Below the pieces are notes generated by a model. That model saw only the letters and a list, made by a program, of their open reading frames with translations, did no database searches and was not told the origin of the DNA. Below are positions 21,575 through 27,250 of a DNA stretch of 64,000 nt, piece by piece. The stretch covers positions 124,001-188,000 of the forward strand of contig JACDNV010000002.1 of the NCBI GenBank assembly GCA_017656425.1, written 5' to 3'. The first letter of the stretch is position 1, and each line of letters opens with the position of its first letter. The DNA comes from Candidatus Neomarinimicrobiota bacterium (lineage in GTDB: Bacteria > Fidelibacterota > UBA2242 > B5-G15). The position numbers and the translations under genes were made by a program.

Positions 21575-22342
21575 TTAGTACTCTACACAGAGGGAATAGT
21601 AAATGTCATTAGTTTTATCATACCATCTCTCGATAACAACGCAGTTTCTAAGAATAGTATCAAAATCCTGTTTTATTATTTTTGATTCAATTAAAAATCC
21701 AAAAAATCTTTTTGTATGAATTGAATTTGCATTGAGTTCTTTTGCCTTTGCCAGATCAAAGTATGAAAAATCATCAGCATCCTGCCAGGCTCTTACCCAG
21801 GAGATGTAATTTGATACGATACCTATACCAATATTTTTATCTTTTTCTGTTTTTAGCTTTACCCAATCGGGTTTCTCTTCCCAATCATTTAGAATTCGCT
21901 TTGCAACATTCACATTGATATCAGATGGGCTTATTATTAAAACGAAATAACTTTTATCGGTGTATAGAGAATCAACGATTTTATAGTCTACATTCCAATT
22001 TAATTTGCTACTATCATATATAATAATAAATGATGGATGCGTTATGCGCATGCGACCATCACTTATCTCTTCCAATCTAAATTTTAACCGTATTGAATCT
22101 TGCTTATAAAGGTTTTTTAATGCATTTTCGAGAGCAGCAAGTTTACCAAGGTCTTTGTTGATGTATTTGCCTGCATATCCAACGGAGAACCTGTATCCAG
22201 AAGGTGGGGTTGGTAATTTTTTAAACCAAGATGGAAATACTTCCTGAGATAAAAGATACTTTGTGGTTAATAGAATAGAAAATATAATCAGGATAAAAAA
22301 GAGCCTGCTCAACCTGAGAGCAGGCTCTGCGTTTTTATTCAT
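21575..22342 (-). CDS. Exported protein with two LPP20-like modules
   Basis: About 255 residues from the ATG at 22342. A signal peptide is followed by a first LPP20-like module (PSWFKKLP...FSVGYAG..LAALENAL, about 35-130) and a second (PDWVKLKT..GIGIVSNYISW...AKAKELNAN, about 155-250). LPP20-like domains occur in exported lipoproteins of unknown function. The ATG overlaps the end of the upstream gene (ATGAATAA) and has no ribosome binding site, so re-initiation is likely. An intrinsic terminator lies over codons 5-16. An alternative TTG start at 22312 would give a compact signal peptide beginning MSRLFFILIIFS. No lipobox is visible. Confidence 0.68.
   Translation of the reverse strand: MNKNAEPALRLSRLFFILIIFSILLTTKYLLSQEVFPSWFKKLPTPPSGYRFSVGYAGKYINKDLGKLAALENALKNLYKQDSIRLKFRLEEISDGRMRITHPSFIIIYDSSKLNWNVDYKIVDSLYTDKSYFVLIISPSDINVNVAKRILNDWEEKPDWVKLKTEKDKNIGIGIVSNYISWVRAWQDADDFSYFDLAKAKELNANSIHTKRFFGFLIESKIIKQDFDTILRNCVVIERWYDKTNDIYYSLCVEY
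22295..22328 (-). terminator. Intrinsic terminator inside the 5' coding end of the next gene
   Basis: On the minus strand an 11-base perfect stem, AGAGCCTGCTC (22328-22318) and its complement GAGCAGGCTCT (22310-22300), encloses a 7-base loop and runs into six U (22300-22295). It begins 7 bases after the stop codon of the LPP20-like lipoprotein gene. It has the classic shape of a Rho-independent terminator, yet lies within the signal-peptide codons of the following gene. Confidence 0.88.
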
Positions 22343-22895
22343 TCCCGATTTTTTCAAGCTTCTGGATTTCCTTTTCCAGTTCCTCAAAGCTCATGCGAGC
22401 TTTTGCTTCATTATATAAGGCTTTGTTTCGTCTTGCCTGCTCTAGAGTTTCCTGTACTAGCGAACTGAGATTATATTCCGCTAATGAATAAATATGATAT
22501 AGATTACCTTCGGTAACTACATTTCTCTTCACAATCTTACATCCGTTAAGAACAACATTAGCTACCTGCTTGCTCACACTCTCTGTAAATTCTAGTGCCT
22601 CGGCATCATTTGCAAGTCCACTTTCTTGCATGAAATTTTTTAACATATTGGAGACTTTTACCTCTATTGTTCTTGCTATAGCATCTCTTGCCCTGGCATC
22701 CGCTGCTTCTTTTGCAAGAGCAAGGCTCTGTTTTACAGCATCTCCGGCTCCGTATATTGCATCTTCCGCCTGAGGTGGATTTATATACCACTCAGGTATT
22801 TTTTCAACATCGGCAACCGGTCTTCCTCCTCCACAGTTAAGGATAAATGCACAGGCAGCTAAAGTAATTGTTAACATAATGATTTTTTCACGCAT
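22335..22895 (-). CDS. LPP20-family lipoprotein
   Basis: A 186-residue probable lipoprotein: the signal peptide ends AFILNC, with the modified Cys at 20, followed by a Gly-rich linker. The LPP20 domain (about 30-150) opens with IPEWYINPPQAEDAIYGAGDA and has an Ala-rich helix (AKEAADARARDAIARTIEVKV). A charged C-terminal helix follows. LPP20 is an outer-membrane-associated lipoprotein family best known from Helicobacter, with unknown molecular function. A strong GAGGAGGAGA ribosome binding site precedes the ATG. It is the third of four neighbouring genes with related exported domains and is followed by a terminator. Confidence 0.85.
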   Translation of the reverse strand: MREKIIMLTITLAACAFILNCGGGRPVADVEKIPEWYINPPQAEDAIYGAGDAVKQSLALAKEAADARARDAIARTIEVKVSNMLKNFMQESGLANDAEALEFTESVSKQVANVVLNGCKIVKRNVVTEGNLYHIYSLAEYNLSSLVQETLEQARRNKALYNEAKARMSFEELEKEIQKLEKIGNE

Positions 22896-22912: not shown

Positions 22913-24259
22913 TTAAAAAACACTACTGATGAATTTTAGAAATTCTTTTGAGTTTATATTAACACTATTAATTGCATTAGTAATAGCCTGTATATGTGTC
23001 TTATCAACCCCGCTGGATTTTATAGTTAATGCTGAAATTTTGTTACCATTATTATCCAGCAGTTTCAAAATGATATTTATTTCTGTATAATAAAGTTTAT
23101 TTATTGGAGATGATATTTCTTTATCCTGAACCATATTCACTTCTCCCCTTATTTCATAAGTTGATGATTGAGAAATTTTAAGATTGTATTTTGATAACTC
23201 CCTTGCTATTAATGTTTCAATCAGTTTCGATGAACCTGATATTGTATCTATTATTTTAATCCTAAAGTTGATATCTGGTATCTTTATTTTATAGGTAAAA
23301 TCTGTCTGCACATTCTCTAAATATTCCATTGCAAAATCCGGTAATTTATCAACATCGATTAAGATTAGTATTTTCCCCGTAAGGTTGTCTTTATCTGTTG
23401 GAAATGGGGTAAAAATTGTTTTACCTATTCCATTATCGTTAGTTTTAATCCTGTCTATTATTTCACCTGTTGAATATTTCACAACAATTGGTATCCCTTT
23501 CAATCCTATCGAAGAGTTTTTAGCTTGATATTCCAGTTTGAATATTATCGGGTTTTCGACTGGTTTGCCAGGTACGTACTCACGATTTAAGTTAGAGATA
23601 AGTTTTATTTTTATGTTTGAAATAGAGTTTTTAATATCTGTGTCGATTTTTTCCAAAAAGTATTCATTAATCTGAGCTAAATTTGAGCCTGTCAGTGCTG
23701 AGTAAATTTCGTTTTTTGATAATAATTCGGGTATTAAGTCTGTTATTTTGTTGAATTCCTCAAAATAGACAAGCAGATTCCCTCTATTCAAGTTATTGTT
23801 GGCACTTGCTTTTAAATTTTCTATGTTCATGATGATATCTTTTATCTGGATTTTAAGAGTGGATAAATATTTTTCCCTGTTCAGGACAGCTAAGGCATAG
23901 TAATTCTTTTTAACTCTTTTAATTTCAGCAATTTTTACGTTAGGCATAGTCTGCTCTGCTTCGGTTTTTACATAGTTTAATATCTCAGATCTAGAAATAA
24001 TTGTTTTATCCTGTTGAATTTCTTCTTCGGTGGATTCTGTAACTGATTTTATTTTCACTATTATTTGTTTTACCAGATCAGCTCTGGCATTTTCTATGGC
24101 CTCTTCTTGAGTCTTACCAATACCGACACCAATTACATAGCTTGAGGAGGGATATTTTTTTGATTGATGTGTTTTTGCCCACTCCGGAATCCCGCTGAAC
24201 AAAAGTGTGTATATTAAAATAGTTGTTAAGATAATTTTACTTTTCACTATTTGCCTCAT
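22913..24259 (-). CDS. Exported protein with N-terminal LPP20-like domain
   Basis: A 448-residue protein with a signal peptide (about 1-22) and an LPP20-like domain right after it: GIPEWAKTHQ, SSSYVIGVGIGKTQEEAIENARADL. The middle part (about 225-330) looks like a beta-sandwich (KLEYQAKNSSIGLKGIPIVVKY, NGIGKTIFTP), an Ig-like or PEGA-like arrangement. The C-terminal part (about 335-445) resembles a lipoprotein-assembly fold. Function is unknown. Its ATG overlaps the upstream gene by 4 bases (ATGA) and it ends 17 bases before the LPP20 lipoprotein gene, so they are one operon. Confidence 0.75.
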   Translation of the reverse strand: MRQIVKSKIILTTILIYTLLFSGIPEWAKTHQSKKYPSSSYVIGVGIGKTQEEAIENARADLVKQIIVKIKSVTESTEEEIQQDKTIISRSEILNYVKTEAEQTMPNVKIAEIKRVKKNYYALAVLNREKYLSTLKIQIKDIIMNIENLKASANNNLNRGNLLVYFEEFNKITDLIPELLSKNEIYSALTGSNLAQINEYFLEKIDTDIKNSISNIKIKLISNLNREYVPGKPVENPIIFKLEYQAKNSSIGLKGIPIVVKYSTGEIIDRIKTNDNGIGKTIFTPFPTDKDNLTGKILILIDVDKLPDFAMEYLENVQTDFTYKIKIPDINFRIKIIDTISGSSKLIETLIARELSKYNLKISQSSTYEIRGEVNMVQDKEISSPINKLYYTEINIILKLLDNNGNKISALTIKSSGVDKTHIQAITNAINSVNINSKEFLKFISSVF

Positions 24260-25527
24260 TGCTTTTTAGACATTTTTAAATATATAAATTTCCTGTTAAG
24301 TATAATTTTCTTGAGTTCAAATTTATTATGGAATTTTTCCCTCAGGTATTGATAAATACTGAATGAATCATTAAATAATTCTGGCAATATCCATAGTGTA
24401 GTATCAAACATTTTATCTGATAAAATATTGACTTTTAATTTACCTTTTTCTTCTATCGCATTTTTTACATCAAAAAAGTACTGTTCAATCTCATTATCTA
24501 AAAAGCCAGTGTCTGCTGTTATAATGAGTTTATAGGGTATTCCAGAGGAGATATCTTTTTTCCAGTAGTTTACAATTCTATCAAGAACCTTTCCTATGGA
24601 GTTATTCATTGCTTCCTCAATCAGCGCCTCGTCGCTTGCTGGTCTTTCCTTACTGTAGCCTATCTCTGTACCAAGTAATCTTGCGGTTGTTGTTTCATAA
24701 GCACGACATCCAACTGTGTATTTTTTTACAGTGGTAGAGCCTATTTTTCTTACGGACTTATTGATGTTATAGGTGATATATATGTCGCTACCTATTGATA
24801 GTGCGAAAAGGTAGTTTACGTCAATTATACCTGATGCTGATAATCCGCTTATTAACTTGTCGTTAAGTTCCGAAACCTGTTCGGGAACTATCACCTCAAA
24901 TCCTCTAGCAGTTAGGAATTGCTCTATTGCTTCTGCTCCCTTTTTTATAAGGGGGTCTTTTTTTAGTAACTCAACTGCAGGTATGGAATCAGGTGATTCT
25001 GGAATTACCATAATCTGTGGTAATCCGACTTTCTCCACAATTTCCCTTTCCGATTGAATTATGTCTTTTTTCGTAAGGTAGTCTTTAAGAAGTCTTATAT
25101 TGACTTTAAAAGTCTTTGTTATTTTTAGTCGTTTGCCATTATCTATTTTTATTCTTTGCTCGTAATTACTTGATTCCCAGACGATAAATTGGTCAATATT
25201 ATCACTTCTGAAAAATTCCTCATGAATAGCTTCAAATTTCTTCCTTGATTCTTCAGTGTTAAGTATTGGATCACTTCCAGAATAAAGCAGGTACCAGATT
25301 GCAGCCCTTCTTGCATCAATATTTGCATTTTTATCGATATCTTTGGCTCTTGGTTTCCTGTGTTTATAGTCTATACCAATGCCTGTTGCTTTTATTATAA
25401 CCTCAGTTGGTGAAGTGTATTCTATAATTGAAGCATCATTGGATACAGGAAGATTGCTAACTCTTTTACTCGCAATTATCATAATTGGAATAGATAGGAT
25501 AAAAAATGCGAGGATTTTTTCTTTCAT
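24256..25527 (-). CDS. Exported protein with FlgT-like N-terminal region
   Basis: A 423-residue protein with an N-terminal signal peptide (about 1-19). Residues 40-150 (IIKATGIGID...NIDARRAAIWYLLYSG, ending KTFKVNIRLLKDYL) resemble the N-terminal domain of FlgT and related exported proteins, where an Ala/Arg-rich helix follows a short strand. Residues 170-320 look like the FlgT middle or DUF6175-type domain (PQIMVIPES, EAIEQFLTARGFEVI). No flagellar gene is present, so a flagellar role is not implied. It overlaps the next gene by 4 bases and follows the previous one by 10. The similarity is by eye and uncertain. Confidence 0.65.
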   Translation of the reverse strand: MKEKILAFFILSIPIMIIASKRVSNLPVSNDASIIEYTSPTEVIIKATGIGIDYKHRKPRAKDIDKNANIDARRAAIWYLLYSGSDPILNTEESRKKFEAIHEEFFRSDNIDQFIVWESSNYEQRIKIDNGKRLKITKTFKVNIRLLKDYLTKKDIIQSEREIVEKVGLPQIMVIPESPDSIPAVELLKKDPLIKKGAEAIEQFLTARGFEVIVPEQVSELNDKLISGLSASGIIDVNYLFALSIGSDIYITYNINKSVRKIGSTTVKKYTVGCRAYETTTARLLGTEIGYSKERPASDEALIEEAMNNSIGKVLDRIVNYWKKDISSGIPYKLIITADTGFLDNEIEQYFFDVKNAIEEKGKLKVNILSDKMFDTTLWILPELFNDSFSIYQYLREKFHNKFELKKIILNRKFIYLKMSKKQ

Positions 25528-25537
25528 GGCTTTTCCT

Positions 25538-27250
25538 TTAATATTTAGTATTTAAAATTGATTGGATTATAGCAAATGGGTTAAAAATTAACTGCGGTAC
25601 TGAAAAATGATAGTATATTCCGCATGATATACCTGCCGTGTATATTTTTGGGTAATCATACGTAAAGAAGTTCTCTACATCTTGTTCTTTCCCCTTGTAC
25701 TTTACCGACCACCAGTTAAGAGGTGGGAAGAGGTCTATTCCCAAAAAGAATCCTATATTGGAATTGATATTCATTGCATATTCGATAGCGGAATTGAGTC
25801 GAAATCCAATACTGTTGTTGTATATATATACATCATCTCCTTTGTAACTGTTGGTTATGTATACTCTCTGAAAAGAGGATAAAACTTCGAAATGTACAGC
25901 TAGAGAACCAATATAATATCTTTTGAGGTATCCAGTATGTATTTCGACAAGTCCGGCTGTTATTTTTTGCTCGGGCCAGTTCAGTATGACGGAATGTATA
26001 TCATCATAAAGTAGAGTTTTTACCGGAATCAAACCACCGCTGACTCCAGCTACTAAAAAACTTTGAAAAGAGTGAATATACGAGCTGATACTTAAGTTAA
26101 AGCTTATATCTGCTGCCATATATAAACCTTTGTAATCTCCAAAAATTAAAAGGAAGTCTTCAGTTAATACAGCTCCATGATTTATATTAATTGGCGTTAG
26201 TCTTGGTTTGACAGCTATATCAATCCCTATGTATGGGTACTCAACTGCAAGCATTCCCTTTGCCCAATCACCCTTTTTTATAGCAAGCGCTTTTGAAGGG
26301 ATACTGCTATTTGGAGAGGTTTTCATTATTCTAATAAAACCGGAATAACGAATATCAGTATTTCCTGCTTCGTCCTCAATCCATTCCCCGACAAGAAACG
26401 GATAATCTTCCTTTAGCCCGTCTCTTTTTGATAGAGGCAGGTAGACAAATCTTTTTTCAATCTCTGCTATAGGAATATTTAATTTGAAGCATTCCATATT
26501 TTTTGTTATTGATTGCAGATTTAGTGCGAAGCTGCTAACAGCTGTATTTAAAGCAAATTCATATGGAGAGTATTTTTTACCGAAAATATAGTATGTTTTA
26601 TCAAGGTTAGATATTCCAACTCCTTCTGAGCTAATCTTTTTTAGATACTTGATACTTGTATCGGGATAATATGAAATCTGGAACCAGTAAATGCCGCCTG
26701 AGATTTTAACCTTGACTTTGTTTTCTTCTGAATTTTTTACTACAGTAAATCTCCTGATATAGGGCAATGCAATATATGAAAGATTGTAGACTTTGATAAT
26801 CTCATCAGCTGATATTCCGATCTCTTTTGCCTTCAACACAATAAATGAATGTTTTTCTGTTTCGGATTCAAATTCTCTTGCTCTTATCTCCTTTTCGGCA
26901 TCCAGAATTTTAAAAATTTCTGGGACTAAATAGGTTTTTATATGGCTTTTAATAACTTCAATACTCGGGTTATTAATAGCACTGAGTTTCTCTGAAAATA
27001 CTGAGAAAATCTTGTCGGGCAATTTGTTTACAAAAAATCTTTTCATTTCAAGGGCATTTTTAACCTCCGTTATAATTAAGCTTTTTTCTTTTTCTTTGAT
27101 TTTTATTCTTTTTCCCTCAATCAGGATGTATGGAATTACTGTAATACCCTTCTTATCATAAACTGACCCGAGTAAATTCTGCGATATAACTATTAAGATG
27201 ATTACCTTTATTAAGCATATTTTTATATAATTTATCTCAATCATGACCAT
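25538..27250 (-). CDS. Exported protein, possible outer-membrane component
   Basis: A 570-residue protein not recognised. The N-terminus has a hydrophobic signal segment (about residues 9-28). Residues 30-290 are mixed helix and strand (SVYDKKGITVIPYILIEGKRI). The C-terminal half is rich in aromatic, alternating strands (YPYIGIDIAVKPRLTP, LNLSISSYIHSFQSFLV, GIYYHFSVPQLIFNPF) as in outer-membrane beta-barrels. No ribosome binding site is seen before the ATG at 27250 or the in-frame ATG at 27244. It heads the operon of four further exported proteins, so a shared envelope complex is plausible. Confidence 0.62.
   Translation of the reverse strand: MVMIEINYIKICLIKVIILIVISQNLLGSVYDKKGITVIPYILIEGKRIKIKEKEKSLIITEVKNALEMKRFFVNKLPDKIFSVFSEKLSAINNPSIEVIKSHIKTYLVPEIFKILDAEKEIRAREFESETEKHSFIVLKAKEIGISADEIIKVYNLSYIALPYIRRFTVVKNSEENKVKVKISGGIYWFQISYYPDTSIKYLKKISSEGVGISNLDKTYYIFGKKYSPYEFALNTAVSSFALNLQSITKNMECFKLNIPIAEIEKRFVYLPLSKRDGLKEDYPFLVGEWIEDEAGNTDIRYSGFIRIMKTSPNSSIPSKALAIKKGDWAKGMLAVEYPYIGIDIAVKPRLTPININHGAVLTEDFLLIFGDYKGLYMAADISFNLSISSYIHSFQSFLVAGVSGGLIPVKTLLYDDIHSVILNWPEQKITAGLVEIHTGYLKRYYIGSLAVHFEVLSSFQRVYITNSYKGDDVYIYNNSIGFRLNSAIEYAMNINSNIGFFLGIDLFPPLNWWSVKYKGKEQDVENFFTYDYPKIYTAGISCGIYYHFSVPQLIFNPFAIIQSILNTKY

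Follow-up and report, generated by a model that had tools for sequence, protein, structure and literature searches.

Which role can a terminator-like hairpin play that lies directly behind one gene and, at the same time, within the reading frame of the next? This question is raised by a locus in a stretch of 64,000 nucleotides (the window) from a 2.8-Mb Neomarinimicrobiota MAG, here labelled G000. The first-pass annotation had described an intrinsic terminator behind a gene of the LPP20 lipoprotein family and a start codon of the downstream gene (DS) that overlaps the LPP20 stop codon, and it had proposed that both form a translation-coupled attenuation switch. The ATG and TTG start codons, the LPP20 stop codon, the stem, the loop and the U-tract discussed below are all located on the minus strand.

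Gene order at the LPP20-DS junction

The LPP20 gene (22335..22895, minus strand) encodes a lipoprotein of 186 aa that matches Pfam PF02169 (E 3.3e-8), and it is preceded by the strong Shine-Dalgarno sequence AGGAGG. It is followed by DS (21575..22342, minus strand), which specifies 255 aa when counted from the ATG, with a signal peptide encoded across the hairpin and a mature part that is distantly LPP20-like. Three further minus-strand genes, assigned to the cluster by synteny, lie upstream: a 448-aa gene with an N-terminal LPP20 domain (22913..24259; PF02169, E 2.3e-12), a 423-aa gene (24256..25527) and, as the first gene of the conserved cluster, a 570-aa gene (25538..27250), the latter two without Pfam match.

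The locus was compared across 23 genomes, comprising G000, one relative from the same family (G001) and 21 other members of the order. A search of contigs with DS alone yielded no relative; the loci were found by a second contig search with an LPP20 alignment, and the closest named organisms were Candidatus Neomarinimicrobiota MAGs. The in-house gene caller chose start codons poorly and served for a first look only. LPP20 orthologues were present in 19 of the 23 genomes, with DS as the next gene in all 19. The order of the three genes upstream of LPP20 was identical across the order wherever the contig was long enough, with the exception of loci L062 and L077, in each of which one expected match is missing. 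The junction is embedded in a co-directional cluster of five genes that is syntenic across the order. An LPP20 relative with 47% identity was also detected on a contig labelled as a Deltaproteobacteria MAG (L078), reflecting either transfer or misbinning.

The deduced DS protein of the window genome gave no Pfam match. Thirteen of 17 members of the DS family matched Pfam LPP20, and hhalign aligned DS with LPP20 at a probability of 90% over about 100 C-terminal residues. According to these profile comparisons, DS is probably a divergent LPP20-domain protein that Pfam misses in this genome, and the locus would therefore contain three consecutive LPP20-type genes (21575-22342, 22335-22895 and 22913-24259). 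Two conserved genes without Pfam match (24256-25527 and 25538-27250) precede the three LPP20-type genes across the order.

A terminator-like hairpin conserved behind LPP20

In the window genome, the LPP20 gene ends with ...GGGAATGAATAA, the stop codon TAA occupying positions 22337-22335. The hairpin (22300..22328) starts 6 nt after this stop codon and consists of an 11-bp stem with 7 G-C pairs, formed by the arms 22328-22318 and 22310-22300, and a loop of 7 nt (22317-22311). The U-tract of six U (22295..22300) doubles as the DS codons TTT TTT, and its outermost U is paired with the A at 22328. A fold of 61 nt reached -24.1 kcal/mol, compared with -12.7 +/- 2.8 kcal/mol for shuffled sequences (z -4.1; none of 200 shuffles was as stable), and inspection of the local minimum-energy fold revealed no competing structure. 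With a G+C-rich stem followed directly by six U, the element has the architecture of an intrinsic terminator, as the first-pass annotation had claimed.

Several other origins of the hairpin were ruled out. It is present as a single copy in the genome of 2.8 Mb as well as in the window, which excludes a dispersed palindrome or repeat element, and the z-score together with the conservation described below excludes a chance structure. A search of Rfam gave no family above the gathering score; the two Thr_leader matches scored 21-23 bits, the cut-off being 55, and are at chance level, and a known riboswitch or leader was rejected accordingly. Inspection of the DS frame at the hairpin by eye showed no run of regulatory codons.

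The absence of the hairpin from related genomes had been named as an observation that would refute the proposed switch, and the comparison gave the opposite result. With a detector demanding a stem of 7 or more pairs, 4 or more of them G-C, and a minimum of 4 T within the next 10 positions, a hairpin with a T-tract was found behind LPP20 in 17 of the 19 genomes, starting 6-16 nt after the stop codon. The same detector applied to four other junctions of the cluster was positive in one of 63 cases (0/13, 0/15, 0/17 and 1/18), and the hairpin was absent from the 3' end of the 448-aa gene (22913..24259) in 17 of 17 loci. Of the two loci missed by the detector, that of G005 shows an imperfect stem with TTTT behind it, and in that of G016 only a longer stem further downstream was seen. 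The stem sequence varies among genera while pairing is retained, with 2-6 types of base pair at each of eight positions in 18 hairpins. In background samples, 304 kb of G000 (contig C2) contained 15 strong hairpin-plus-T sites, three of them within 60 nt behind the stop codon of a long ORF, and three such sites were located behind stop codons in 280 kb of G004. This scarcity suggests that most genes of the window genome end transcription otherwise.

The concentration of the hairpin at a single junction and the rarity of such sites elsewhere indicate that it is a constrained feature of the LPP20-DS junction. Since it is kept across the order, it matters more than could be told from the window. 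Its significance lies in a junction-specific terminator hairpin that has been maintained throughout an order of an uncultured phylum, in which the sampled genomes otherwise contain few such sites.

The tails of the hairpins are less uniform. The stems are more constant than the U-tracts, several members combine a long GC-rich stem with a U-poor tail, and an approximate terminator score is negative in G004, G006, G007 and G022, whose tails are U-poor. The greater constancy of the stems would fit a hairpin whose main task is to stabilise the 3' end of the LPP20 mRNA or to form a barrier to its processing, instead of terminating transcription. Most tails, however, are T-rich and abut the stem as in terminators, and the two roles are compatible; we regard stabilisation as the main function as quite improbable.

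Position of the DS start relative to the hairpin

In the window genome, the candidate ATG of DS (22342-22340) overlaps the LPP20 stop codon in the sequence ATGAATAA (22335..22342, minus strand), and an open DS frame extends from 56 nt ahead of the end of the LPP20 stop codon across the whole hairpin. The overlapping start and the frame through the hairpin had both been noticed before; they are retained here with the correction that the overlap comprises 8 nt; counted from the last base of the stop codon, the ATG starts 7 bases upstream. Such an overlap of -8 nt falls within the range of -8 to +10 nt given for termination-reinitiation layouts (PMC10666635). The candidate starts comprise this ATG and a TTG (22310..22312), two bases of which lie in the loop and the G in the stem; two further TTGs upstream fall inside the LPP20 gene.

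The arrangement in the relatives is different. In 11 of the 19 genomes the ATG of DS is located 7-14 nt after the end of the hairpin, which is regarded here as the normal start (the spacing value of 16 for G015 was counted from a shorter inner stem), and in another five the start lies 35-196 nt from the hairpin, with spacers of 140-196 nt in G016, G018 and G019. Only G000, G001 and G004 are devoid of a usable in-frame ATG, GTG or TTG between the hairpin and the hydrophobic core of the signal peptide. In these three genomes the first codon of the frame overlaps the LPP20 stop; it is an ATG in G000 and G001 (-8) and a TTG in G004 (-11). A frame that places ribosomes on the hairpin is accordingly confined to three of 19 genomes in two lineages and absent from most relatives that retain the hairpin. 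The cross-genome comparison that had been suggested thus supported the retention of pairing in varied stems, but ATGAATAA is shared with G001 only and most relatives start DS after the hairpin.

Judged from the sequence comparison, the ATG overlapping the LPP20 stop is most likely the DS start of the window genome. The identical 8-mer occurs in G001, which has neither a TTG at the loop position nor a usable start behind the hairpin, and the distance from M1 to the conserved W39 is 38 residues in both genomes, the DS proteins being only 55% identical. The residues PALR, encoded by the 5' arm and the loop, are common to both, and all three differing codons are synonymous, one of them with compensation in the stem; with two genomes the codon test of this frame is too weak, and the pattern is no more than suggestive. 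An open frame across the hairpin is weak evidence by itself, because the same is seen in G006, G008, G010 and G017, four of the 11 relatives in which the start is normal.

Translation of DS from the TTG at 22312 would mean that no frame runs through the 5' arm and that the hairpin merely hides the start codon. The resulting N-terminus MSRLFFIL resembles MSRLYSII of G006, the conserved W would be residue 29, near positions 26-28 in the f4 relatives with tight spacing, and in G003 a TTG is the only sensible start listed. We nevertheless consider this start unlikely for the window genome, as G001 has no start at that position and the overlapping ATG is its only sensible one; moreover, the TTG has no Shine-Dalgarno sequence upstream and overlaps the 11-bp stem.

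Since DS starts after the hairpin in 11 relatives, the terminator predates its embedding in the DS frame. The family of G004 is a different one, and its other members show the normal arrangement, so the start was probably lost twice. The G004 loci L037 and L074 represent this second lineage, in which DS no longer has a start after the hairpin, with a TTG overlapping the LPP20 stop codon by 11 nt as the closest start in frame. In G005 (loci L042 and L026) the DS match is split over two frames, with two TGA and three TAA stops in the first part, which suggests a frameshift caused by mutation or assembly.

Partial termination as the favoured function of the hairpin

From the conservation and position of the hairpin we infer that it probably acts as an intra-operon partial terminator, by which more LPP20 than DS would be made. 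The five genes would be expressed from a single transcript; the hairpin would end most transcripts behind LPP20, and a fraction would pass into DS, the last gene of the operon. All 15 LPP20 loci tested show a 6-nt Shine-Dalgarno match, and the DS start regions in the tight arrangements have matches of 0-4 nt. This asymmetry, with a strong Shine-Dalgarno sequence on LPP20 and mostly none on DS, would push in the same direction. Because the stem starts only 6-16 nt after the LPP20 stop, a ribosome finishing LPP20 could mask it, and the read-through fraction may depend on the distance between the polymerase and the ribosomes that follow it. The family of the window genome and, separately, one other genome would have lost the normal DS start that closely follows the hairpin, so that DS translation would begin at the LPP20 stop by termination-reinitiation, reading across the hairpin. 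Should termination take place within the DS frame, ribosomes that had re-initiated would run off a non-stop mRNA, a cost of the embedded form that speaks against this account. A tmRNA that could deal with such messages is present in the window genome, as in nearly all bacteria.

The U-poor tails and negative approximate scores in G004, G006, G007 and G022 speak against partial termination, as does the possibility of a complete terminator combined with a DS promoter inside LPP20, DS being 35-196 nt away from the hairpin in five genomes. In that case the hairpin would end the LPP20 operon, and DS would be an independent gene transcribed from a promoter located within LPP20 or the spacer. The strong stem and U6 of the window genome, the spacers of 140-196 nt in G016, G018 and G019 that could hold a promoter, and the general observation that terminators located behind stop codons are the commonest kind would all fit such an arrangement. 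In 14 genomes, however, DS starts at most 14 nt from the end of the hairpin or ahead of it, and the distance of 7-14 nt in 11 of them leaves little room there for a promoter. No sigma-70-like site was listed on the minus strand between 22300 and 22900, with the proviso that promoters of Neomarinimicrobiota may differ, and the Shine-Dalgarno matches of DS are poor. A complete terminator followed by an independent DS gene therefore appears rather doubtful.

In the attenuation switch proposed by the first-pass annotation, re-initiation at the overlap would cover the hairpin and let transcription pass, and transcription would end otherwise. Of this proposal, the terminator-like hairpin and the overlapping ATG as the likeliest start were upheld, but the view that the embedding is the point of the element found no support: as 11 of 19 relatives start DS after the hairpin, the conserved role of the terminator is independent of the overlap and of re-initiation. 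The -8 start and the open frame in G000 and G001, along with the similar -11 TTG overlap in G004, would suit the switch, and ribosomes are able to block the folding of a terminator (PMC4824070). On the other hand, the frame is open through the hairpin by chance in four of the 11 normal-start relatives, a sensed signal is not known, and the published E. coli data oppose the main step. In E. coli, a separate AUG situated 30 bp ahead of a terminator decreased termination by only about 10%, because the ribosome was still lagging behind the polymerase (PMC4824070). A translated stop codon located 5 bp upstream of the terminator, in contrast, reduced termination from about 90% to less than 10%, and removal of translation restored termination efficiency (PMC4824070). 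The re-initiation switch is accordingly possible in principle but, in our estimation, improbable.

Since the effect of the stop codon in E. coli was large and that of the start codon about 10% (PMC4824070), a translational gate, if there is any, would more likely be the terminating ribosome of LPP20 itself, which is common to all relatives with the hairpin; the distance from stop codon to stem is 6 nt here and similar in these relatives. It is also conceivable, though we give it little credence, that selection moved the DS start to the LPP20 stop in two lineages, so that translation of DS overrides an ancestral terminator lying within the codons of the DS signal peptide. We consider most probable a conserved intra-operon partial terminator of a known kind, whose embedding in the frame of the downstream gene, seen in two lineages, is uncommon.

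Comparison with known systems

A search of the literature on LPP20 loci with terminators yielded nothing relevant; the device itself is known from other systems, and its embedding in a downstream frame, seen here in two lineages, is uncommon. In operons of clostridial ABC importers, internal terminators behind the genes of substrate-binding proteins cause an excess of the upstream transcript, with measured efficiencies of 20.7-96.1% (PMC9045158). The LPP20-DS junction resembles these operons in the stem-loop after an upstream gene, there encoding a binding protein, in long GC-rich stems that often have U-poor tails, and in the expected outcome of an upstream protein in excess. It differs in protein family and phylum, the clostridial examples being from cellulolytic species, and in that partial termination, measured there, is predicted here. 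That study makes no mention of a reading frame that crosses the terminator, as the terms 'start codon' and 'ribosome' are absent from its text.

The attenuator of pyrBI (discussed in PMC4824070) likewise has a terminator that lies among the initial codons of a translated frame, and a close ribosome can suppress it. In contrast to the locus described here, which involves a full structural gene and in which no sensing element was found, pyrBI relies on a leader peptide gene, polymerase pause sites and the sensing of UTP. Overlaps of -8 nt are the third commonest in prokaryotes and represent a re-initiation layout (PMC10666635). The junction in G000 shares with such overlapping pairs the 8-nt overlap and a downstream gene without a clear Shine-Dalgarno sequence, but has in addition a terminator hairpin immediately behind the overlap.

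The spacing of stop codon and stem finds its closest counterpart in the tR2 reporter of E. coli, with 5-6 bp there and 6 nt here (PMC4824070). The reporter is synthetic, whereas the LPP20-DS junction is native and conserved over a bacterial order. With DS starts located behind the hairpin, far away from it or ahead of it, the junctions of this order provide a natural series for the interplay of ribosome and terminator.
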